A stretch of DNA of 64,000 bases, from NCBI GenBank assembly GCA_902601345.1, contig CACKMK010000005.1, positions 20,925 to 84,924 on the forward strand, in the 5' to 3' direction. The stretch's first letter is position 1; every line of letters begins with the position of its first letter. Origin of the DNA: an uncultured Candidatus Poseidoniales archaeon. GTDB taxonomy: Archaea > Thermoplasmatota > Poseidoniia > Poseidoniales > Thalassarchaeaceae. Of the stretch, positions 20,711 through 34,394 are shown piece by piece. The notes under the pieces were generated by a model. The model worked only from the letters and a program-made list of their open reading frames with translations, ran no database searches and was not told where the DNA came from. A program made the translations under genes and the position numbers.

Positions 20711-20731
20711 ATGTACGAACGACGCTCCATT
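20711..20731 (+). promoter_or_regulatory. Conserved 21-bp upstream element, copy 1
   Basis: ATGTACGAACGACGCTCCAT and the next base match, with 2 mismatches in 21, a sequence at 58800-58820. Both lie exactly 66 bp upstream of the likely ATG of a TSP3-repeat gene and are followed by an A/T-rich possible TATA element about 40 bp before the ATG. It may be an activator or operator site. It also makes the ORF-track start at 20711 doubtful. Confidence 0.45.
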
Positions 20732-20776
20732 CTGCTTAAGACCCCGAGTTATCGCCAAAGAACTGTGACACATATC

Positions 20777-23700
20777 ATGAGGTTCGTAATTGCGAATTAC
20801 GAAGGTAACCTCGAATCATCAAAGAAGAGATCAGCCACTCTTCTGGCATTGCTGTTCCTGATATCAAGTACAGCTTCTATCCATTTTTCTGCAGTCGAGG
20901 TTTCGGCTACAAACAATGACCAGGATGCGGACGGCCTTCCATACGGTATTGAGTTCATCATCAACACACAACCCCAGGATTGGGATTCCGACAATGATGG
21001 CCTCCCCGATGGGTGGGAGTGGCAGTACGGCCTGGATCCACTATCTTCATTGGGAGATAATGGATCTACTGGCGATCCAGATTCCGATGGCCTGACAAAT
21101 CTCAACGAGTACCTCTTCGGAATACCCTCTGGCTGGGACGAACCCTCGACTACCAATGTCCTCGACAATGGTGTTTGGTGGAACGGGACCATCCCAGTTT
21201 CAAACTGGGACGAGGAGAGCGCGATGCAAGTTATTCAAGGCTCAGGATCCGATGGTGCTGATGAGGATCCGGTAGGAAACATCTGCACCGACACCTTCGA
21301 CAATGACCATGATGGGATGGTCGACTCAAATGACAATGACTTCGACGGCGATGCAGATTGTAGCTCGGATGATGACGATGGGGACGGAGAAATCGATGAG
21401 GACCCCAACGGCTGGGATACCGATGGAGATGGTATGCCAGATGGTTGGGAGGTAGCAAACGGTTTGGATCCTACTTCAAATTCCAACCAGGACGGAACAT
21501 ACGGGGATCCGGACTTCGATGGCTTGGCTAACATCTACGAGTACGTCAATCCTGCATGGGGGACCAGGAACGGCTCAACATTCCCTCCTACCCAGTATTT
21601 TAGACCAGGTCCGATAAACATGACAATCACTGAGTCGCCATGCAACCCAGTCCTCTCTCTAGGGCCAGGAGGATGTGCGATATTCACCGCAGAGGTCGAT
21701 GGCATAACGCAGACAGATCCTCAGAACAACGATACTGACGGCGACGGCCTCAATGACTCATTCGAGGGACTGGTGTTGCTTACCGATCCAACCTCCCCTG
21801 ACACTGATGGTGATGGGATTTTGGATGGAATCGAGTATAACGGCTCTTACGGAGACCCCGCACAAGGCTCAGATCCACGTGATAATAACACCGATGGCGA
21901 CCATCTTGATGATGGGGATGAGGACCTTAACGGAAACGGGGTGATTGACACTGGAGAGACCGATCCGACCAGGATAAACGACGAAGGGGACTTCGATGGC
22001 GACGGTCTTCAGAATTGGGAGGAGAACAACTCATGCACCCTCTGGAACGTCGCTGATACGGATGGAGGGGGCATAAACGATGGAGACGAAGGCTTCCCCG
22101 GACAGACCGATCCCTGCACCTCGACATTTGATCTAGTCTTCACGGTAATAGCGTGGGACGGAGAGGCGGACACACTTACTCTAAACTCTACAGAGGGAAT
22201 CGACCCGGATCCCGTAGACTGGAGGGGAAGCCCCCCAATGGCTTACTATATCTCTCCCAATGGTACGCAAACACCGTTCGTCTACTCCTCCCTAGAGTCA
22301 CTATTCATGAGGGGCGTAGACGTCGAACCCCCGGCGGGTTCCAATACCATACTAATTACAAACGGATCTTGGTGCTGGGATGCTTCTCCAAACGCATCCA
22401 ATGACCCATGGTGTGATGACGACTACAAGGACACCGATGGTGACGGACTGGCCGACTGGGAGGAACTGACCGCAACTTGGGGGTACCTATCAGACCCCAC
22501 TCTATTCGATACCGATGGAGACGGCGTGAACGACCTCTCGGAGATACTGAACGATACAGACCCAAGGGAGCCCTGCGACAATCTTCTCGATTCAGATGGA
22601 GATGGCCTCAATAACTACTTCGAGAACTCTACGGGCTGCTCTATGATTTTCGGTATCGGTGGCAACCTTACTAGCGATGTCTGGTTCACGATTTGGAACA
22701 TAGCCGACTCCGACTCCGGAGGAGTTGATGACGGTCAAGAATACCTTGACGGTACAAACCCCCAGAATAATCCCGATGATGACATTAATCCCCTAGATAC
22801 GGACGGGGATGGGATTCCCGATTCCATAGAGTTGGACCTCGGTACTGATTGGTTGGATCCAGACTCAGATGGAGGGGGGGTGCCTGACGGCGAAGAATGC
22901 CCAGAGGATTTCTGGGAGCTAGACTGCATCGGCTCTCCAAGCGACCCCTTCGACCCTTCTGACGATATCGAGGAAAACTCCCTGATGTTCACAGCAACAA
23001 ACACCTCAGACGGTCTTGACCCATCTTTGAGGCACTACTGGAGATGGCACACTTACGACTACTACACTGGAGTCTCGTGGGGGGTAAACAGCACTCTTGT
23101 CGGGAACACTCAGGTTATGCCAGAATTCTCTGTTGAACAGGGAGTTGCAGACCAATCCTTCTGGAATCACTCAGGACCTCTATCATGGGAGATTATCTTC
23201 GATGAAGCGGGATACATCGGGCCTGGCCGGGAACTAATTCAACCATTCAATGTAGTCAACTACACGACTTGGGCAGACTTTACCGCTGGACTTAATTTCT
23301 CCAACTACACCAGGGATGTGATCGTCGACAGCGCTGTGATTGAGGCGCTTTACGTAAATGCTCCAGAGGTGATTCTTACTACTGAAATCACAGATAACTC
23401 CACCGCATTCGATGATTCGGAATACGGTAAAGACCTCCCTCAAGACTTCTTGGATAACGGAGATTTTGTGATCAATCTGACACAGGACATACTGGATCAG
23501 TCCGGAGCAATTTCAGCATGGGACAAAATCAATGCAATTCAGGACTTCCTCGTCAATGGCAATGAGACCATATCCTTCCTGAGGAACCATTATGGCTCGG
23601 GAAGACCCGATGGGATGGGCAGTGATAGTGACATTTCTCACTGGATTCTGAACTCTTCTCGAGAAGGAAACTGTGACGAATTCACCTCCGTCTTCGTTAC

Positions 23701-26700
23701 GATGTTGAGAATAGCGGGGATGCCTGCCAGGAAGGTAACAGGATTCGCAGGAGGGACCTGGGATGGCAAGGCCTTCAACGTGTATGGGAAGGACTTCACG
23801 AGATGGGCAGAAGTCCATCTTCAGACAAATCAGAACCAAGGAGAACTGGATATGGGTTGGATCCCGTTCGAGGCTTGTCCCCCGATGTCGGAAGTAACAG
23901 TCAATGTGGAATCTTGGGGGCCAAACTCAATAGAAAGGAACGTATCTATTTCAGAAGAAATATGGGTACAAGGGACCCTAGCATTCTCAGAAAATCAGAC
24001 ACTGGTAGAAAACGTCTCGTTGTCTCTTTACTTAGTGGAGCCAGAATCATCTGACAACGTCCCAGGCAGCGCAGCAATTCCTGAGCATGTCGTTGCCAGC
24101 GTCTCGACAGATTCCAATGGATCGTTCAACCTAACAGGGCTGCCCCAGGAAGTAATCCAGCCAGGGTTCGGATCATTGGTCATTCTGACCTCCGAGAAGG
24201 GTTATGTCGGAGTTCAGGGAATAACGATGGCATGGTTACTGAATGTCTCAGACAACGTTTCTCTCTCCATCACAAATCCAATCCCCGTGAATCAGCCTAT
24301 GCTCGGGATAGGTGTGAACTCGTCAATCACTGGGCAACTATCGTGGGCTAGCTCCCCATTCCTCGATCCATCGATAAGGGACGATATGCAGGTCGTTCTG
24401 AACTACTCATCCCAAGTTGATGGGGAGGTATCAGTCACATCAGGAGTCTCTAGCGGTGGTTACTATGAGTTCTTGGTCCCGATAGACGAGACCGAGCCCC
24501 TCGGGCTCATGGATGCGGCAATTTCATTCTATGGATGGCACTTTGATGACCTCAACAACGAAACACCGCCATCTTACCATGCCAGACCTAGTAACTATTC
24601 TTTCAAACTCAACATCACTCTATCTCCTAACCTGACCGTTGACTTAGAGGCGCAGTCAACGAACAACTCAATTTTGGAGATAGGAAGCAACGTATACCTG
24701 AATGGAACTGTCCTGAGCAGGGGTCCGTCTCCCTCGCCACTGAACGGGACACTTATCTTGGAAATGAGGAGGGCCGACATTTCCGGGCCATTCGTGGAAC
24801 TTTCCTCTTGGTACCTGAACAACTCTTCTTGGGGACCTAATCCCGGTGAGTTCTCCATCACTTGGCCTTTCTCTGCAGCTGAGGTTCCGATACCGGCAGG
24901 TCCCGTCGACGTCAGATTCCAGTTCGATTCCGATGACCTAAATGCAAATGATCAGGAACAGTTCTCCGATACGTTCGGGATTCGTAGCTTCGTGGTATTC
25001 GACTACGAACTCCCATTCGCGATCAGGGGTAGAGAGTACTCTGTGGACGTCTTGCTGGAAGATCATACAGGCTCATCTTTCGCATCTTTCGAAGGGGAAT
25101 ACACTCTGCTCTTCGACGGAGTACTAGAATGGAATCAGACAGACCCAGACGCAGGCAGGGTGACTCCAACGTTCACCCCGACATGGAACATGGCTCCTGG
25201 TGACTATGACTGGAACCTTAGCTATGCAGGATCCACATGGCTTAGCGCGAATTCGACTTCGGGAGTCCTAAGAGTTAGAGGATTAGCCAACGCCACTGCA
25301 AACCTATCAAGCGATTGGTCTGTCAGGGGGTCCACGAACTGGATTTCTGGAATCGCAAAGGACATGATTCTCCAGAATGCGGTCACCCAGAACAACTCCT
25401 CTGTGCTAGTACAGCTCCTTGTCCCATCCGACCTCCCCACAACCCCTGGTGGTTTCCCTGCGGCACCCGCCATATACAACATCGCCAACGGATGGGTCGA
25501 CAACCTAACTGGCTCTTACAACCTATCATTCGAAATCCCATCAGGAATACCCTCTGGTGTCTACGAGATTTCGGTCACTCTGGGATTCTCTTCGAATCCC
25601 CCTGATGGAGGGGCATACTACAATGCTGCAGATCCGACCACAATTCCTATTGGAGTCCAGACAGAGTTCGTCGTTCAAACAGATCAAACTTCTATGATAG
25701 TTACTGCAGGGGAGCAGTTGGAACTCCAAGCCACTGTTACTGACGTCGAGGATCCGAGTGCGACGCTATCCGGAGTAGAACTTGAGTTGTACTTTGACTG
25801 GGGGGGCCCTCTACAAACCATTCTCCAGTCTTCTACCACGAGCTCCGAGGGAATAGCATCCTTCGATGCTACGATACCATCGTCCACCCCTCCCGGATTC
25901 TATAACATTAGGATACACGCCCCAGATGATGTGACCGACACCCTGGAGTCCCCAGGGGCAGGAAGGTGGCTAGGCAACCAGAGCTTCGCAAATTTAACAG
26001 TCCAGGTGGGTAGCACTGTCGAAATCACGTTTATCCCAAACCAGGTAACAGCCCTCCAATCATTCAACCTAGTTGGGACTGTTATGGACTCGGCGGATGC
26101 AAACAGGACAGTAGACGGACCAGTTGGAATCAACGTCTTCTTCTTGGACGAGCCCGATGAGCTACTGGTAGAAAACCACACTACTGATGCATCGGGAGGT
26201 TTCAACGTCTCGGTACCCACAGATGTACTAGGAAACGGAGTAACCAGAGGAGATAGAACCGTAGTAGTTAGCGTGGTCAACGGCTCGACACCGTTCTACC
26301 TAACTGGAAACGGGAATGCGTCTATTCTCGTCATGGGAGTTCCCCAGTTCACTGATACTAATCCATTCATTAACACAATCATCGACCGAGGCGACTCAGC
26401 CATCATGACCACTAGGCTTATCGAGTTCAGCAACAACGAGGCACCCCTTTCTGGATTCGAGGTTCTAGTACTCTTTCACGACACTTGGCTCGACCCTTCG
26501 GTCACCGCTGCCGATGGCAGCGCCTCCTTCGAATTCGAGATACCTCACGACCATCCACTGGGACTCGTTAACGTAACCTTCGTGTTCAATGGTTCTGGTG
26601 ACCTCAACCCTGCCGTCCAGATTCTGAACACGATCACCGTAAGGTCTCCCGTTAGCATGTTGATCGACCCGATCCAAGCTAACCCCCTGCCAGGAGAGCC

Positions 26701-29700
26701 CTTCAACGTGACAGGTTCGCTCACCTCCAGCAACGGGACGGGTTTGTCAGACACCAATGGAAACCCACTAAATCCCACTCTGATTTTCTCGATAGACGGA
26801 GAATCTGCGAACTTTACCGTCCCATCAGTTGTATTCAACTCCGACGGCACATGGTCGGCCCAGATACGTCTGGATCTGTCGTTCCCTCGTGGCCCTCACG
26901 GTATCGATATTTCATTCACGCCTCAAGTAACCTACTTCTCTGCCGCCTCTGCCTTCACCACTTTCAACAGCAGAGGCTACACCGTCCTAACAATTGAGAG
27001 TCCAGACGACCTCGATCCCGACAATAGGACAATCCGAGGTGACACCTTCGACATGTCCCTGTCAATCATCGACAATTCAGGATCCCCAGTCTCCTCCGCA
27101 ACCGTTGTTGTCGAGGTAGACAACATCACCGTATGGGGCGGGCTCACCGACTCCAACGGAACCGCTTCGGCATCAATCTTAGTCAAGCCAGACAGAGATC
27201 CAGGGCCGATGAGGGTCACTGCAACTTTCTCCGGAATCAGCGGACCCACTGGCCTCCTAGGGGACCAGACATGGACCAGGGTTGTCGTCCTCGCACCTAC
27301 GCAACTAGTTCTGAAAGAGGCAACATCTCCCTCAATCGCAGGGTCCTCAGTAACCTTCACCGGCTCCCTCCAAGACGAGAGGGGACAGATGCTGAAAGAA
27401 GAGGGCAACCTCAGTGGTGGCCTAATTCATTTGCACATTGATGGGGTTGACGTAGGACCAGCATACACCGTATTCTCGAACTCTACCACGGGACAGTGGT
27501 CGATAACATACCAGATCCCATCAGACATGGATTTCGGACAACACCAAGCCAGAGTCGAGTTCCTAGGAGGATTCTCATGGGTCGATCCAATGGGCCAGGG
27601 AGACTCGGTTAATCCTGAGTACTACCTTGGCTCAACAGACTCCCTGGCATTCAATGTGACACAGCCTTCACAAGTAGTGATTTCCACTTCTCCTTCTGAG
27701 ATAGACAGGACCGAGGTCGCCACTGTTGAGGGGATGCTCACAGACGGTGTGGGGAGGGCCATTCCCGATAGGGACCTTGTCCTTTCAGTGGACGGACAAG
27801 AAATAACCTCGATATCAGTAAACTCCAACGGATCCTTCGTAGGTTTAGTTCCAATTCCACCCGATATGCCACTAGGTCCCGTAATCATCGGGGTTGAGTT
27901 CCTTGGTGAGGACTTCATCCTCCCATCCAACTCCACCGTAGTATTCACCGTCTTCGCACCCGTCTCGGTCACCATTGATGATCTCGGACCAGTTGCTGTA
28001 GGGGATGAAATGACCGTATCCGGTACCGTCAAGGACAATCTCGAGAACGGTTGGCTGGACAGCCATACCATCGAGGTCTTCGTGGATGGGGTCCTCATTG
28101 GCATTACAAGCAGTCAGCAGGATGGCAACTGGAGCCTGAAATGGCTGGTCCCGGAATCTGTGGAAATAGGTAACCACTCCATTTCCGCGATCGCACCTGC
28201 TCAAGGATTCTACAGACAGGGCTCTACAGACTCCAACTTCACCGTATCGTACCATACCGAGATATCCCTGCAGGCTGAGGGCAGCTATGCAACACGTGGC
28301 GGATATTGGAACCTCAGTGGCAGACTCTTCGAGTCCGACACAGGTTTCGAGCAAGGCCTGGAAGGAAGGGAAATCACTGTTCTTCTTGACGGCTCCGATG
28401 TGGAAACCATAACTACAGAAGAGGGAGGGCTGTTCTCTCTGAGTCACAGGGTGCAGTACTCCCTAGACAGGGGTTCTCACAACTTCACGTTCCTATTCCA
28501 AGGTGAGTTCCTTTACCTTCCTGCTGAATCACAAATGGAGGTATTCGCCCTGTCTGACGTCGTTATAGAGATGCAGCCGATCACAAACACAATAGTGAGA
28601 GGAGACCCTTCCCCTTCACGATCGATAATGCTCCAGGGCCTGATAAGGGAGGTCGGCGGAGACTCGGAAATTTTCGATAATCTCTCCATGTCTCTTGCTT
28701 GGGGAGAAACCGAACTCCCCATGACTTCGGGACCTTGGGGCAACCCCGACACTATGAACTTCCAGATTAGAGCCAAGGCGCAAGAGTTCATGACCCCGGG
28801 AAACAATATGATTACGATTATCGTGGAGTCGAATCAGGCAAGCTTCCTGAATGGGGGATCCAAGGAAATCGATATCCTTGTCATGGTCGAGGTCGATTTC
28901 GAGTACTCGGAAATAGAACTCTCCAACGGACAGAGAATAATCAGGGGTTCAGTGAACGCCACGGCAAGGGACACCGGAGCTCCCCTGGAAGGACTCTCTC
29001 TGAGTGCTAGCCTCGCCAACGGCAGCGTCACCCACTTCTCCGTATCCAAACTGACAGGGGCGGATGGGGTCTTCGAATACGAGTTCAAATCAATGGCACC
29101 TCTGCCTCCACTGTCCTCACAATCCCCTCCTCCCGAGGGATGGGGGGTACTCGCGGTCCTGCTGATGTCCGACTCGGACTTCATCGAACCAGGTAGCTTG
29201 GCCCTGCTCCCGTCATCAGGCGTCCAAATCGCCTATGAGAAGCCAGAGGAGGCATCCTTCCTGGATAGGGCAGCAGTAGCCATTGTGGCCATCGTTGTAG
29301 GTGCCATTCTAGTAGCGATAGGTGCCATGGCCATCAACACTAGGAGGAAATCCACCATCAAGGAGCTGGCCAACATTTTCGGACAGACGGTTGAGATGCT
29401 AGCCTCCGGCGACGAGTACAGGAGAGCCATCTTCCTATGCTATGAAAACCTGTGCTCAGTCCTCACCCGACGCGGGTTCCTGCGTCGCAACTTCGAGACC
29501 GTCAGGGAGTTCGAGATGGCTATCCGAGGCGCACTGCCCATCAGCGAGGCATCATTGGTTTCGCTGGACAGGATTTTCGAGGAAGCACGGTACTCCAGTC
29601 ACGTCCTAGGAGATGCCCACAGAGACAATGCCCAACTGGCCCTGTCCTCAGTAGTTGAGGAGATTAAGGCGATGCAGGACATCCCGAAGAGAGGTCCGCT

Positions 29701-29722
29701 CGAGTTCGAGCTGGAAGAGTGA
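20777..29722 (+). CDS. Giant surface protein: TSP3 repeats, transglutaminase-like domain, Ig-like repeats, DUF4129
   Basis: Start ATG 20777 is preferred to 20711 because it puts the signal peptide (SATLLALLFLISSTASIHF) near the N-terminus; about 2981 aa. Residues 50-750 carry calcium-binding TSP3 repeats of the form DSDGDGLPDGWE. A transglutaminase-like core follows with a full triad: Cys966 (GNCDEF), His1014 (RWAEVHL) and Asp1025 (DMGWIPFEACPP). About 1750 residues of repeated beta-sandwich domains come next (recurrent patterns GS-V-F-G-L-D and DG-W), rich in N-glycosylation sequons. One membrane helix (about 2831-2852) precedes a cytoplasmic DUF4129 domain. TGase plus DUF4129 is a known pairing in bacterial and archaeal membrane proteins; the size is unusual. 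It ends 1 bp before the convergent 151-aa gene. Confidence 0.82.
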   Translation: MRFVIANYEGNLESSKKRSATLLALLFLISSTASIHFSAVEVSATNNDQDADGLPYGIEFIINTQPQDWDSDNDGLPDGWEWQYGLDPLSSLGDNGSTGDPDSDGLTNLNEYLFGIPSGWDEPSTTNVLDNGVWWNGTIPVSNWDEESAMQVIQGSGSDGADEDPVGNICTDTFDNDHDGMVDSNDNDFDGDADCSSDDDDGDGEIDEDPNGWDTDGDGMPDGWEVANGLDPTSNSNQDGTYGDPDFDGLANIYEYVNPAWGTRNGSTFPPTQYFRPGPINMTITESPCNPVLSLGPGGCAIFTAEVDGITQTDPQNNDTDGDGLNDSFEGLVLLTDPTSPDTDGDGILDGIEYNGSYGDPAQGSDPRDNNTDGDHLDDGDEDLNGNGVIDTGETDPTRINDEGDFDGDGLQNWEENNSCTLWNVADTDGGGINDGDEGFPGQTDPCTSTFDLVFTVIAWDGEADTLTLNSTEGIDPDPVDWRGSPPMAYYISPNGTQTPFVYSSLESLFMRGVDVEPPAGSNTILITNGSWCWDASPNASNDPWCDDDYKDTDGDGLADWEELTATWGYLSDPTLFDTDGDGVNDLSEILNDTDPREPCDNLLDSDGDGLNNYFENSTGCSMIFGIGGNLTSDVWFTIWNIADSDSGGVDDGQEYLDGTNPQNNPDDDINPLDTDGDGIPDSIELDLGTDWLDPDSDGGGVPDGEECPEDFWELDCIGSPSDPFDPSDDIEENSLMFTATNTSDGLDPSLRHYWRWHTYDYYTGVSWGVNSTLVGNTQVMPEFSVEQGVADQSFWNHSGPLSWEIIFDEAGYIGPGRELIQPFNVVNYTTWADFTAGLNFSNYTRDVIVDSAVIEALYVNAPEVILTTEITDNSTAFDDSEYGKDLPQDFLDNGDFVINLTQDILDQSGAISAWDKINAIQDFLVNGNETISFLRNHYGSGRPDGMGSDSDISHWILNSSREGNCDEFTSVFVTMLRIAGMPARKVTGFAGGTWDGKAFNVYGKDFTRWAEVHLQTNQNQGELDMGWIPFEACPPMSEVTVNVESWGPNSIERNVSISEEIWVQGTLAFSENQTLVENVSLSLYLVEPESSDNVPGSAAIPEHVVASVSTDSNGSFNLTGLPQEVIQPGFGSLVILTSEKGYVGVQGITMAWLLNVSDNVSLSITNPIPVNQPMLGIGVNSSITGQLSWASSPFLDPSIRDDMQVVLNYSSQVDGEVSVTSGVSSGGYYEFLVPIDETEPLGLMDAAISFYGWHFDDLNNETPPSYHARPSNYSFKLNITLSPNLTVDLEAQSTNNSILEIGSNVYLNGTVLSRGPSPSPLNGTLILEMRRADISGPFVELSSWYLNNSSWGPNPGEFSITWPFSAAEVPIPAGPVDVRFQFDSDDLNANDQEQFSDTFGIRSFVVFDYELPFAIRGREYSVDVLLEDHTGSSFASFEGEYTLLFDGVLEWNQTDPDAGRVTPTFTPTWNMAPGDYDWNLSYAGSTWLSANSTSGVLRVRGLANATANLSSDWSVRGSTNWISGIAKDMILQNAVTQNNSSVLVQLLVPSDLPTTPGGFPAAPAIYNIANGWVDNLTGSYNLSFEIPSGIPSGVYEISVTLGFSSNPPDGGAYYNAADPTTIPIGVQTEFVVQTDQTSMIVTAGEQLELQATVTDVEDPSATLSGVELELYFDWGGPLQTILQSSTTSSEGIASFDATIPSSTPPGFYNIRIHAPDDVTDTLESPGAGRWLGNQSFANLTVQVGSTVEITFIPNQVTALQSFNLVGTVMDSADANRTVDGPVGINVFFLDEPDELLVENHTTDASGGFNVSVPTDVLGNGVTRGDRTVVVSVVNGSTPFYLTGNGNASILVMGVPQFTDTNPFINTIIDRGDSAIMTTRLIEFSNNEAPLSGFEVLVLFHDTWLDPSVTAADGSASFEFEIPHDHPLGLVNVTFVFNGSGDLNPAVQILNTITVRSPVSMLIDPIQANPLPGEPFNVTGSLTSSNGTGLSDTNGNPLNPTLIFSIDGESANFTVPSVVFNSDGTWSAQIRLDLSFPRGPHGIDISFTPQVTYFSAASAFTTFNSRGYTVLTIESPDDLDPDNRTIRGDTFDMSLSIIDNSGSPVSSATVVVEVDNITVWGGLTDSNGTASASILVKPDRDPGPMRVTATFSGISGPTGLLGDQTWTRVVVLAPTQLVLKEATSPSIAGSSVTFTGSLQDERGQMLKEEGNLSGGLIHLHIDGVDVGPAYTVFSNSTTGQWSITYQIPSDMDFGQHQARVEFLGGFSWVDPMGQGDSVNPEYYLGSTDSLAFNVTQPSQVVISTSPSEIDRTEVATVEGMLTDGVGRAIPDRDLVLSVDGQEITSISVNSNGSFVGLVPIPPDMPLGPVIIGVEFLGEDFILPSNSTVVFTVFAPVSVTIDDLGPVAVGDEMTVSGTVKDNLENGWLDSHTIEVFVDGVLIGITSSQQDGNWSLKWLVPESVEIGNHSISAIAPAQGFYRQGSTDSNFTVSYHTEISLQAEGSYATRGGYWNLSGRLFESDTGFEQGLEGREITVLLDGSDVETITTEEGGLFSLSHRVQYSLDRGSHNFTFLFQGEFLYLPAESQMEVFALSDVVIEMQPITNTIVRGDPSPSRSIMLQGLIREVGGDSEIFDNLSMSLAWGETELPMTSGPWGNPDTMNFQIRAKAQEFMTPGNNMITIIVESNQASFLNGGSKEIDILVMVEVDFEYSEIELSNGQRIIRGSVNATARDTGAPLEGLSLSASLANGSVTHFSVSKLTGADGVFEYEFKSMAPLPPLSSQSPPPEGWGVLAVLLMSDSDFIEPGSLALLPSSGVQIAYEKPEEASFLDRAAVAIVAIVVGAILVAIGAMAINTRRKSTIKELANIFGQTVEMLASGDEYRRAIFLCYENLCSVLTRRGFLRRNFETVREFEMAIRGALPISEASLVSLDRIFEEARYSSHVLGDAHRDNAQLALSSVVEEIKAMQDIPKRGPLEFELEE

Positions 29723-32268: not shown

Positions 32269-32305
32269 CCCCAATCAGCATTTCATCTGGGCAGAGTGGG
32301 GTTGC

Positions 32306-32324
32306 CCCGCACGAGGCGTGCGGG
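32306..32324 (-). terminator. GC-rich hairpin downstream of the small basic ORF
   Basis: CCCGCACG-AGG-CGTGCGGG is a perfect 8-bp stem with a 3-base loop. It lies 19 bp past the stop codon of the 64-aa ORF and about 38 bp before the helicase start on the same strand. It could limit transcription between them; archaeal termination normally depends on T-rich tracts, which are absent, so the role is open. Confidence 0.4.
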
Positions 32325-32343: not shown

Positions 32344-32538
32344 CTATCTTTGTTCTGCTTTCCTTTGCGTTCGAGGGGCATCTTTGGAGTCATATCCGAC
32401 TGCGTTGCTTAGCCTCCTGGCCCTATCTCTGATCCTCCTCAGACCGGTCTCGAACCTACCGGTTCCGTTTGATTTGTGGTTGGGGGAGCGGACGTGCCGC
32501 TCCCCCGATTTCTGTACGTGCATCCCAACATCGTCCAT
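32344..32538 (-). CDS. Small basic protein co-transcribed with the RHH regulator (64 aa)
   Basis: The ORF track starts this frame inside the RHH gene at 32592, but ATG 32538 lies only 13 bp after the RHH stop and is preceded by GGAGTG with suitable spacing, so I take it as the start. The product (MDDVGMHVQKSGERHVRSPN, then FETGLRRIRDRARRLSNAVG and a lysine/arginine-rich end) is strongly basic and resembles no family known to me. Its middle coincides with a 10-bp perfect hairpin. Position after an RHH protein recalls toxin-antitoxin pairs or small nucleic-acid-binding partners, but no toxin motif is visible. A structured RNA is the alternative. Confidence 0.5.
   Translation of the reverse strand: MDDVGMHVQKSGERHVRSPNHKSNGTGRFETGLRRIRDRARRLSNAVGYDSKDAPRTQRKAEQR
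32482..32506. other. Perfect 10-bp hairpin
   Basis: GGGGGAGCGG-ACGTG-CCGCTCCCCC can fold with a 5-base loop. It falls inside the small basic ORF. An ACCGGT-N9-ACCGGT inverted repeat lies about 25 bp away at about 32441-32461. Two such elements in a 195-bp gene hint at an RNA-level function, either in the mRNA or as a separate RNA. Confidence 0.45.
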
Positions 32539-32551
32539 ATCTCTCTCACTC

Positions 32552-32917
32552 CTAAATGTTTGAATCTTCATCATGTCTGGAGCGCAACTCATCCATGCGT
32601 CTCCTCAATAGGTCCACAACAGTGGCCCCCTCGACCATCTCCTTTCGGATCATTTCCCTAGCAGATTGCCTCAGGACTACATCCGCTGACTCCCCGATTA
32701 TCTTGCAGTAGTCTCTGAGCCTGATAGTAAGATCCGGACCTAAGTCGACCTCTATCCTATCTCCCTTGCCAGGAAGTGGATTGGAAAGCATCCTCCGGAC
32801 AGCCTCTCGGATTACATCAGACCTGTTCCTCATGCCATCGAAACCAACCAGCCTGTCTAACTCCAGGAGGTGATCCTCTGGTATCCTTAGCGAGACCATT
32901 GGACTGTTGCCGGCCAC
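32552..32917 (-). CDS. Ribbon-helix-helix (CopG/NikR-like) regulator, apparently duplicated
   Basis: The 121-aa product opens with a typical RHH unit: a beta strand (MVSLRIPEDHLLELDRL) then two helices ending NRSDVIREAVRRML. Residues about 53-95 look like a second RHH unit (IEVDLGPDLTIRLRDYCKII then SADVVLRQSAREMI), so one chain may supply both halves of the DNA-binding ribbon. The remaining tail is basic and helical. No NikR-type C-terminal nickel (ACT) domain follows. The start is GTG 32917, backed by AGGAGGGG with 7-base spacing. Just upstream lies an array of four (C/T)AATT(G/A) sites spaced 11 bp, a likely autoregulatory operator. The target regulon is unknown; the divergent HD gene is an obvious candidate. 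Confidence 0.8.
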   Translation of the reverse strand: MAGNSPMVSLRIPEDHLLELDRLVGFDGMRNRSDVIREAVRRMLSNPLPGKGDRIEVDLGPDLTIRLRDYCKIIGESADVVLRQSAREMIRKEMVEGATVVDLLRRRMDELRSRHDEDSNI

Positions 32918-32959
32918 CTACTTGCCCCTCCTGAAACTGTGAGAGGAGCGTACAGGATA

Positions 32960-32998
32960 TAATTGTATTGCAATTGAAATGCAATTGAATTACAATTA
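32960..32998. promoter_or_regulatory. Operator-like array: four AATT-core half-sites at exact 11-bp spacing
   Basis: TAATTG (32960), CAATTG (32971), CAATTG (32982) and CAATTA (32993) repeat every 11 bp, so AATTG-N5-CAATT occurs three times in overlap. This places all sites on one face of the helix. The array lies 43 bp upstream of the RHH start codon and about 80 bp upstream of the divergent HD gene, the position expected for an autoregulated RHH operator. Confidence 0.65.
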
Positions 32999-33025: not shown

Positions 33026-33077
33026 CCGGCAACGTGCGATTCAAGACACATGACTGCTGGGCATTCTCTGTGATACT

Positions 33078-34394
33078 GTGAAAGTCATCAACGATGCAAT
33101 CCACGGCCAATTCAAATTGGATGGTGTGACAAAGGATCTTCTTTCAACGCCGGAGATGAATAAACTCAGTCACATCAAGCAGTTGGGGCTCGCTCATTTG
33201 GTATTCCCGGGCGCGCATCACACTCGGTTTGAACACTCGTTGGGAGCCTCTCACATTGCGGGAAGGATGGCAGAATCCCTTTCAATGGACGATTTAAACA
33301 AGGATACCCTACAAGTTGCAGCCATGTTGCACGATGTCGGGCATGGCCCGTACTCGCACACTCTGGAACATATCCTCGCGGATAGAGGGGGCCTTGATCA
33401 CATGGAGGTCACCAAGGGCATAATCCTCGGCGAATATGATGTCATAGTCGAGGGTGAAGGGGAATCCCTAGATGATAGGAAATCGATTCCTGAGATATTG
33501 GAGGATAGAGGTCTAGATCCAAAAATCGTTTCTTCGCTGATCACTGGTCCCGATGCGTCCGGAACCGAGAGGTCCTTGCTGAGCTGGTCAGAGGGGCAAT
33601 CCGATTTCTCTGGAGAGGATAGGACCCTTGCCCTCCTCATACATGGTCCTGTGGATTGCGATCAACTGGACTATCTTCTCAGAGATTCCCACTTTACTGG
33701 AGTCAAGCATGGAGTAGTGGACCATAATCGGCTCATAGAGTGCCTGAGAAGTCAGAGCGGCGACATTGTTGTAGAACAAGGGGGACTATCTTCTCTGGAA
33801 GGGATGCTTGTTGCCAGAGGGCTGATGTACAGTGCTGTTTACTTCCACAGAGTCACCAGAGTTACAGAAGTGATGCTTTCAAGAGCGGTCGAGCGAGCGG
33901 GAGATAATCTCCCTGACTCCTTGGACCTCCAGAGGAGAGTGGATGCCGAGATATGGGCAGAATTGGACAAGGTCGGGGGATTCTCGAGAGATATGGTTAC
34001 TAGACTCAAGTACAGGAATCTTCTGAAAGTCTGCCTAAGCAGGAGGAAGGAAGATATGACCCAAGAGCAGGTAGAAAGGCTGGCAAAGGCGGCAGATAAC
34101 CTGGCAGAAAGAAGGGAGTTGGAGGACGATATTGCATACCGGGCTGGTCTAGAGCCTGGATATGTGGCGATTGACGTTCCTAGCGTGAAACTCTTACTCT
34201 CCGAGCCACGAATGGCCCAAGTGGATGTTAAGATCCTAGGGGATGACGGAAAAACAAGGTGGCTCAAGGAGGTAACTCCTATGGCCGAGGCTCTCAGGAG
34301 GAGGCAGGTAAGCCAAGAGGCAGTATATGTGATGACAACATCTGGAAACGAGCGCAGAGTATCGGAAATCGCTCAAAAGATACTGTTCGAATAA
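33078..34394 (+). CDS. HD-superfamily phosphohydrolase (COG1078/SAMHD1-like)
   Basis: The 438-aa protein has the HD-domain metal motif in order: HHTRFEHSLGASHI (His), VAAMLHDVGHGPYSHTLEH (HD), and LDYLLRDSHFTGV (Asp). The opening VINDAIHGQFKLDG and ISHLKQLG-like block LSHIKQLGLAHLVFPGA are hallmarks of the COG1078 dNTPase-like group, related to SAMHD1 and dGTPases, which remove triphosphate from nucleotides. The substrate here is not known. The start is GTG 33078 with no clear SD. It is divergent from the RHH regulator across a 160-bp region full of operator-like repeats, so its expression may respond to that regulator. Confidence 0.85.
   Translation: MKVINDAIHGQFKLDGVTKDLLSTPEMNKLSHIKQLGLAHLVFPGAHHTRFEHSLGASHIAGRMAESLSMDDLNKDTLQVAAMLHDVGHGPYSHTLEHILADRGGLDHMEVTKGIILGEYDVIVEGEGESLDDRKSIPEILEDRGLDPKIVSSLITGPDASGTERSLLSWSEGQSDFSGEDRTLALLIHGPVDCDQLDYLLRDSHFTGVKHGVVDHNRLIECLRSQSGDIVVEQGGLSSLEGMLVARGLMYSAVYFHRVTRVTEVMLSRAVERAGDNLPDSLDLQRRVDAEIWAELDKVGGFSRDMVTRLKYRNLLKVCLSRRKEDMTQEQVERLAKAADNLAERRELEDDIAYRAGLEPGYVAIDVPSVKLLLSEPRMAQVDVKILGDDGKTRWLKEVTPMAEALRRRQVSQEAVYVMTTSGNERRVSEIAQKILFE

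Follow-up and report, generated by a model that had tools for sequence, protein, structure and literature searches.

The window analysed here is a stretch of 64,000 nucleotides from the 1.18-Mb, 64%-complete genome of an uncultured Candidatus Poseidoniales archaeon (Thalassarchaeaceae). It contains a gene for a small regulator of the RHH type, preceded by a phased array of short repeats and followed, 13 nt past its stop codon, by a small open reading frame (Table 1). A divergent HD-phosphohydrolase gene starts at 33078 (+) and has an intergenic region of about 160 bp in common with the RHH gene, an arrangement that is kept in most of the family. A second conserved block, CTTGAATCGCACGT (window 33032-33045, - strand), is found in this region about 33-46 bp upstream of the HD gene. 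Elsewhere in the window a 3003-aa ORF (20711-29722, +) has repeats of Asp-rich and beta-sandwich-like segments; it probably encodes a giant surface protein.

Table 1 Features of the RHH gene, its putative control region and the small ORF downstream
Feature	Position in window	Strand	Remarks
Tandem-RHH regulator ORF	32552..32917	-	121 aa, GTG start; RHH-1 at about residues 7-46, RHH-2 at about 53-97
Shine-Dalgarno AGGAGGGG of RHH gene	32925..32932	-	Read from sequence
TATA-box-like AATTATAT of RHH gene	32957..32964	-	Abuts unit 3; kept in orthologues; putative promoter
Predicted operator unit 1 (distal) TTGTAATTCAA	32985..32995	-	Orthologue conservation and sequence
Predicted operator unit 2 TTGCATTTCAA	32974..32984	-	Orthologue conservation and sequence
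Predicted operator unit 3 (promoter-proximal) TTGCAATACAA	32963..32973	-	At expected BRE position
64-aa basic, Arg-rich small protein	32344..32538	-	Directly downstream of RHH; probably co-transcribed, judging by spacing
RNA element within small-ORF start	32482..32526	-	Invariant GGGATGCAC (32518-32526) and covarying G/C hairpin (32482-32506)

A small ORF of this type (GMH-type) was present in 98 of 122 downstream regions, and its differences at the three codon positions (270/367/896) give a clear coding signature; the 64-aa protein had no match in Pfam. The RNA element is single-copy, its hairpin shows three covarying pairs, and a comparison with Rfam gave no match. Sequences that resemble it were seen at two other places: GGGATGCAC immediately precedes the start codon of some Poseidoniales ftsZ genes (L237, L239), and GGGATGGGA occurs in the rhh leaders of other Thermoplasmatota (L293-L295, L302, L308). 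A G/C hairpin behind a ACACACAC stretch follows the small ORF (32305-32324) in most members of the genus and possibly marks the transcript end.

The regulator

The first-pass annotation had proposed that two RHH units lie in one chain, and had suggested structure prediction of the 121-aa chain, alone and as a dimer, and a profile search with residues 50-95. The N-half matched the Pfam family RHH_1 (PF01402) with 21.6 bits against a gathering cut-off of 20.5, and positions 54-108 of the family profile matched the solved CopG-type RHH chains 6iya and 7etr with E-values of 0.0012 and 0.0037. When modelled alone with AF2, the C-half (pLDDT 84.5) had an extended strand and helices at 60-74 and 78-103, and nearly all Foldseek matches of this model were RHH proteins (Arc, CopG, ParD, NikR); 6iya was matched with probability 1.00 and TM 0.78/0.89 in a search whose best E-value was 0.06. 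The full-length model, by contrast, was poor (pLDDT 63.5) and formed no ribbon, and its best Foldseek E-value of 0.54 was not taken as proof of fold. The presence of two RHH units in the 121-aa chain is confirmed by these profiles and predicted folds, with E-values for the C-half that are modest. TALE matches of the C-half profile in the PDB were disregarded because they summed repeats of a 19-residue match, and Adeno_E1B and FliT matches were at chance level.

In the Poseidoniales sequences alone the internal repeat between the N- and C-halves is weak (P about 0.01), and it was settled only by the addition of relatives from other Thermoplasmatota (L212-L231). Two RHH_1 stretches were found in three of the six relatives tested, the two halves of the relatives align with each other with a probability of 97.9, and their full length matched the Poseidoniales profile over residues 1-99 with a probability of 98.6. 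The strand sequences of the two units are unlike, R-I-E-V-D-L in RHH-2 and V-S-L-R-I in RHH-1. A scan of 11 genomes for RHH_1 gave the regulator and at most one further match in each, several of these further matches being within a protein of about 540 aa; by this search the regulator is the main small RHH_1 protein of the scanned Poseidoniales genomes. A search of IMG/VR for viral homologues returned just one short single-RHH match.

The operator array

The hexamers TAATTG, CAATTG, CAATTG and CAATTA begin exactly at 32960, 32971, 32982 and 32993, in the 11-bp phase first noted, and a pattern of three such hexamers was matched in none of 100 dinucleotide shuffles of the whole window. They had been described as half-sites, but each is a palindrome, and the array (32963-32995) is better read as three 11-bp units, TTGYAWTWCAA, next to the TATA box. 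The conserved object across orthologues consists of two full CAWWTG dyads and one flanking half at each end: the two inner hexamers, which are the dyads between units, are conserved on both sides and the outer hexamers on their inner side only. In the Poseidoniales array, units 1 and 2 lack symmetry at positions 4/8.

The expectation that the array would recur upstream of orthologues held in all 112 regions scored, with 84 distinct arrays (Thalassarchaeaceae, Marine Group II); these regions comprise L001-L033 from whole genomes and L114-L193 from named contigs, and the genomes overlap in part. Every region scored at least 26 out of 33 for three units, against 25 for the best of 2,580 shuffles, and when periods of 8-15 were compared, period 11 scored 29.4 and the others 19.8-20.9. 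A distance of 40-45 bp separates the array from the start codon in every region except one (37 bp), and the conservation forms an island that terminates at the TATA box. The full array is absent from two divergent Thalassarchaeaceae (f1) genera, those of L035 and L041, and the sister family f2 has a variant array in which TGTAATCAnnTGTAATACA is repeated with alternating 10/12-bp spacing. These comparisons confirm that the array, phased at 11 bp, is real and present upstream of orthologues.

A two-unit search with 3 mismatches found a single locus in the source genome (G000) and, in 27 of 28 genomes of the genus, essentially only the regulator's own promoter; as multi-unit patterns were used, single-unit targets elsewhere escape these searches. 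The f2-type pattern gave scattered matches, and the five inspected were four coding and one intergenic (G016).

Relatives and ftsZ

The FtsZ gene lies directly downstream in 12 of the 20 relative loci. TGTCNGACA palindromes are found upstream of the relatives (27 sites, 0.9 being expected from mononucleotide shuffles), over promoters and often 22 or 11 bp apart. From genome scans for the 22-bp pair, 22 loci were examined, the choice resting mainly on a low number of mismatches or on a spacer that looked like a promoter. At 16 of them the pair was just upstream of tandem-RHH or FtsZ homology, which started 19-102 bp further on; these include an unlinked ftsZ in each of the two genomes of one genus (L258, L290). 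At 2 mismatches a reversed-pattern control also gave frequent matches, so weight is placed only on low-mismatch pair sites. From this arrangement of genes and sites, the Thermoplasmatota relatives seem to control the adjoining ftsZ. At one further locus (L259, in G136) a 22-bp-spaced, TGTCNGACA-like pair stands before an apparent membrane-protein gene, neither RHH nor ftsZ.

Tandem-RHH relatives directly upstream of ftsZ, with phased palindromes, point to a CdrS-like regulator of the division type. On this kinship the family is thus a duplicated form of such a regulator that has been separated from ftsZ in the Poseidoniales. The first-pass suggestion of an undescribed class went too far, as the pairing of CdrS with ftsZ2 is known and the protein looks like a tandem-RHH form of these ftsZ-linked regulators. 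In the Poseidoniales regulator loci ftsZ is not a neighbour, and the array was not found at the ftsZ promoters examined in this order (three tubulin-type classes). ftsZ was therefore rejected as a strong-operator target there, and a division role in the Poseidoniales would follow from kinship only.

Proposed mechanism

From the sequence, its conservation, the folds of the two halves, the uniqueness of the array and the linkage to ftsZ, we infer DNA binding, cooperativity, repression and a role in division. It is likely that the protein is a tandem-RHH, CdrS-like regulator which represses itself via the phased array, and that its relatives very probably set the level of FtsZ. Two or three neighbouring RHH ribbons would occupy the 11-bp units along one helix face; the spacing places the units on the same side and so suits adjacent ribbons. 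With the promoter-proximal unit on the BRE position and touching the TATA box, the bound regulator would exclude TBP/TFB, and this would shut off the transcript for the RHH and small proteins (negative autoregulation). Members of this family in other Thermoplasmatota would act directly upstream of ftsZ on a TGTCNGACA core phased at about 22 bp, very probably to set FtsZ, and in the Poseidoniales the regulator gene would have moved away from ftsZ, with the self-operator alone recognisable.

The ribbon could be formed in cis or in trans. It is possible, if rather doubtful, that each chain is a pseudo-dimer in which RHH-1 and RHH-2 make one ribbon in cis, monomers then lining up on the array like those of the lipothrixvirus protein AvtR. 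The linker that joins the two RHH units is short, and the asymmetry of units 1 and 2 at positions 4/8 keeps an asymmetric model alive. AvtR offers a precedent, being a tandem-RHH monomer that is reported to repress its own gene and to cover about 100 nt of DNA (PMC5569661). The RHH-2 strand is unlike that of RHH-1, however, so the two halves of a site read by a cis ribbon should differ, whereas the sites of the relatives are near-perfect palindromes; the full-length AF2 model, of low confidence, also lacks a cis ribbon. The symmetric TGTCNGACA site fits a symmetric N-N' ribbon (RHH-1:RHH-1') at least as well as the putative cis pseudo-dimer.

Whichever ribbon is formed, the array might be an activating site, with the regulator bound directly upstream of its own promoter and recruiting TBP/TFB there, although this is unlikely. 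Placement upstream of a TATA box can also serve an activator, and activation of the own promoter is conceivable because haloarchaeal CdrS activates ftsZ2 (PMC7439475); most CdrS binding sites are 41-110 nt upstream of the TSS (PMC8406309). In the array, however, the BRE position is taken by unit 3, and some palindromes of the relatives flank the TATA box or sit just downstream of it, where occlusion is expected. These positions favour exclusion of TBP/TFB and hence autorepression, and the regulator probably turns its own gene off.

That the array serves the divergent HD-phosphohydrolase gene, or both genes, is improbable. The conserved intergenic region is shared by both genes, but the HD gene is absent at L032, L192 and L193, where the array is still present, and likewise from f2 genomes, which have the variant array; in all of these the distance of the array to the RHH TATA box stays fixed. 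The array also overlies the RHH core promoter. As it stays with the RHH gene when the HD gene is missing, and is the sole strong site in the genome, the regulator's own gene would be the target, and autoregulation is the simplest reading for the Poseidoniales regulator. The statement in the first-pass annotation that no target family is recognised was in this respect too strong, the predicted target being the own promoter. Archaeal promoters are commonly AT-rich, but the idea that the array is an AT-rich promoter spacer or an element common to MGII promoters, with no dedicated regulator, is already largely refuted and barely credible, given the lead of period 11, the 112 regions that beat every shuffle and a site that is essentially unique in each genus genome.

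A broader history can be offered as a plausible conjecture, short of probable. In the Thermoplasmatota a duplicated CdrS with helically phased palindromic operators would set the FtsZ level, and in the Poseidoniales this system would have been rewired: the regulator left ftsZ, its operator changed from TGTCNGACA to TGYAWTNCA, and together with a new 64-aa protein it now makes up a closed, self-limiting circuit, the message of that protein bearing its own RNA element.

The control of division genes is open in archaea beyond haloarchaea and Sulfolobales. A tandem-RHH regulator found across the phylum, with operators that can be recognised at ftsZ, would be a concrete circuit, testable in cultured Thermoplasmatota. 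For Marine Group II, which is very abundant and uncultured, the prediction is of a regulator with one recognisable strong operator, its own promoter. The tandem architecture, with its symmetric and asymmetric operator variants, also amounts to a natural experiment in DNA reading by fused RHH units.

Comparison with known systems

Arc, CopG and other classical RHH repressors autoregulate through adjacent dimers on one face of the helix. The fold of both halves of the regulator is that of Arc and CopG, which differ in having one RHH per chain. AvtR, from Acidianus filamentous virus 6, likewise has an archaeal chain with two RHH units in tandem, and it is reported to oligomerise on DNA as well as to repress its own gene (PMC5569661). 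It is viral, and its consensus, ATnnTnnTAnnACnTT, is unlike the operator here; the likeness is one of architecture.

aCcr1, the Sulfolobales cell-cycle RHH regulator of cdvA, is a division-gene regulator whose family model is matched by the N-domain in 26 of 30 family members. For the window protein the match to this model (NF053762) is 25.8 bits, below the curated cut-off of 60; the second RHH is a further difference, and the context of the relatives is ftsZ, not cdvA. The RHH regulators of division genes given in a 2024 review are CdrS and aCcr1 (PMC7617429).

CdrS, also a small archaeal RHH regulator, is the best NCBIfam match of the RHH_1 N-domain, although model NF058555 gave 31.2 bits against a curated 100, over residues 8-46 only. 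It is a single-domain RHH protein of 55 aa encoded with ftsZ2 in haloarchaea (PMC7439475), and archaea usually have an RHH_1 gene near ftsZ2 (PMC9871819), as the wider tandem-RHH family is directly upstream of ftsZ in Thermoplasmatota. The regulator here differs in its 121 aa, its two RHH units and its own phased operator, and in the Poseidoniales the linkage to ftsZ is missing. A search of the open-access literature found neither a tandem-RHH ftsZ-linked family nor such phased operators described. The pairing of CdrS with ftsZ2 is thus already known, while the tandem architecture and the phased operators, by that search, are apparently new.
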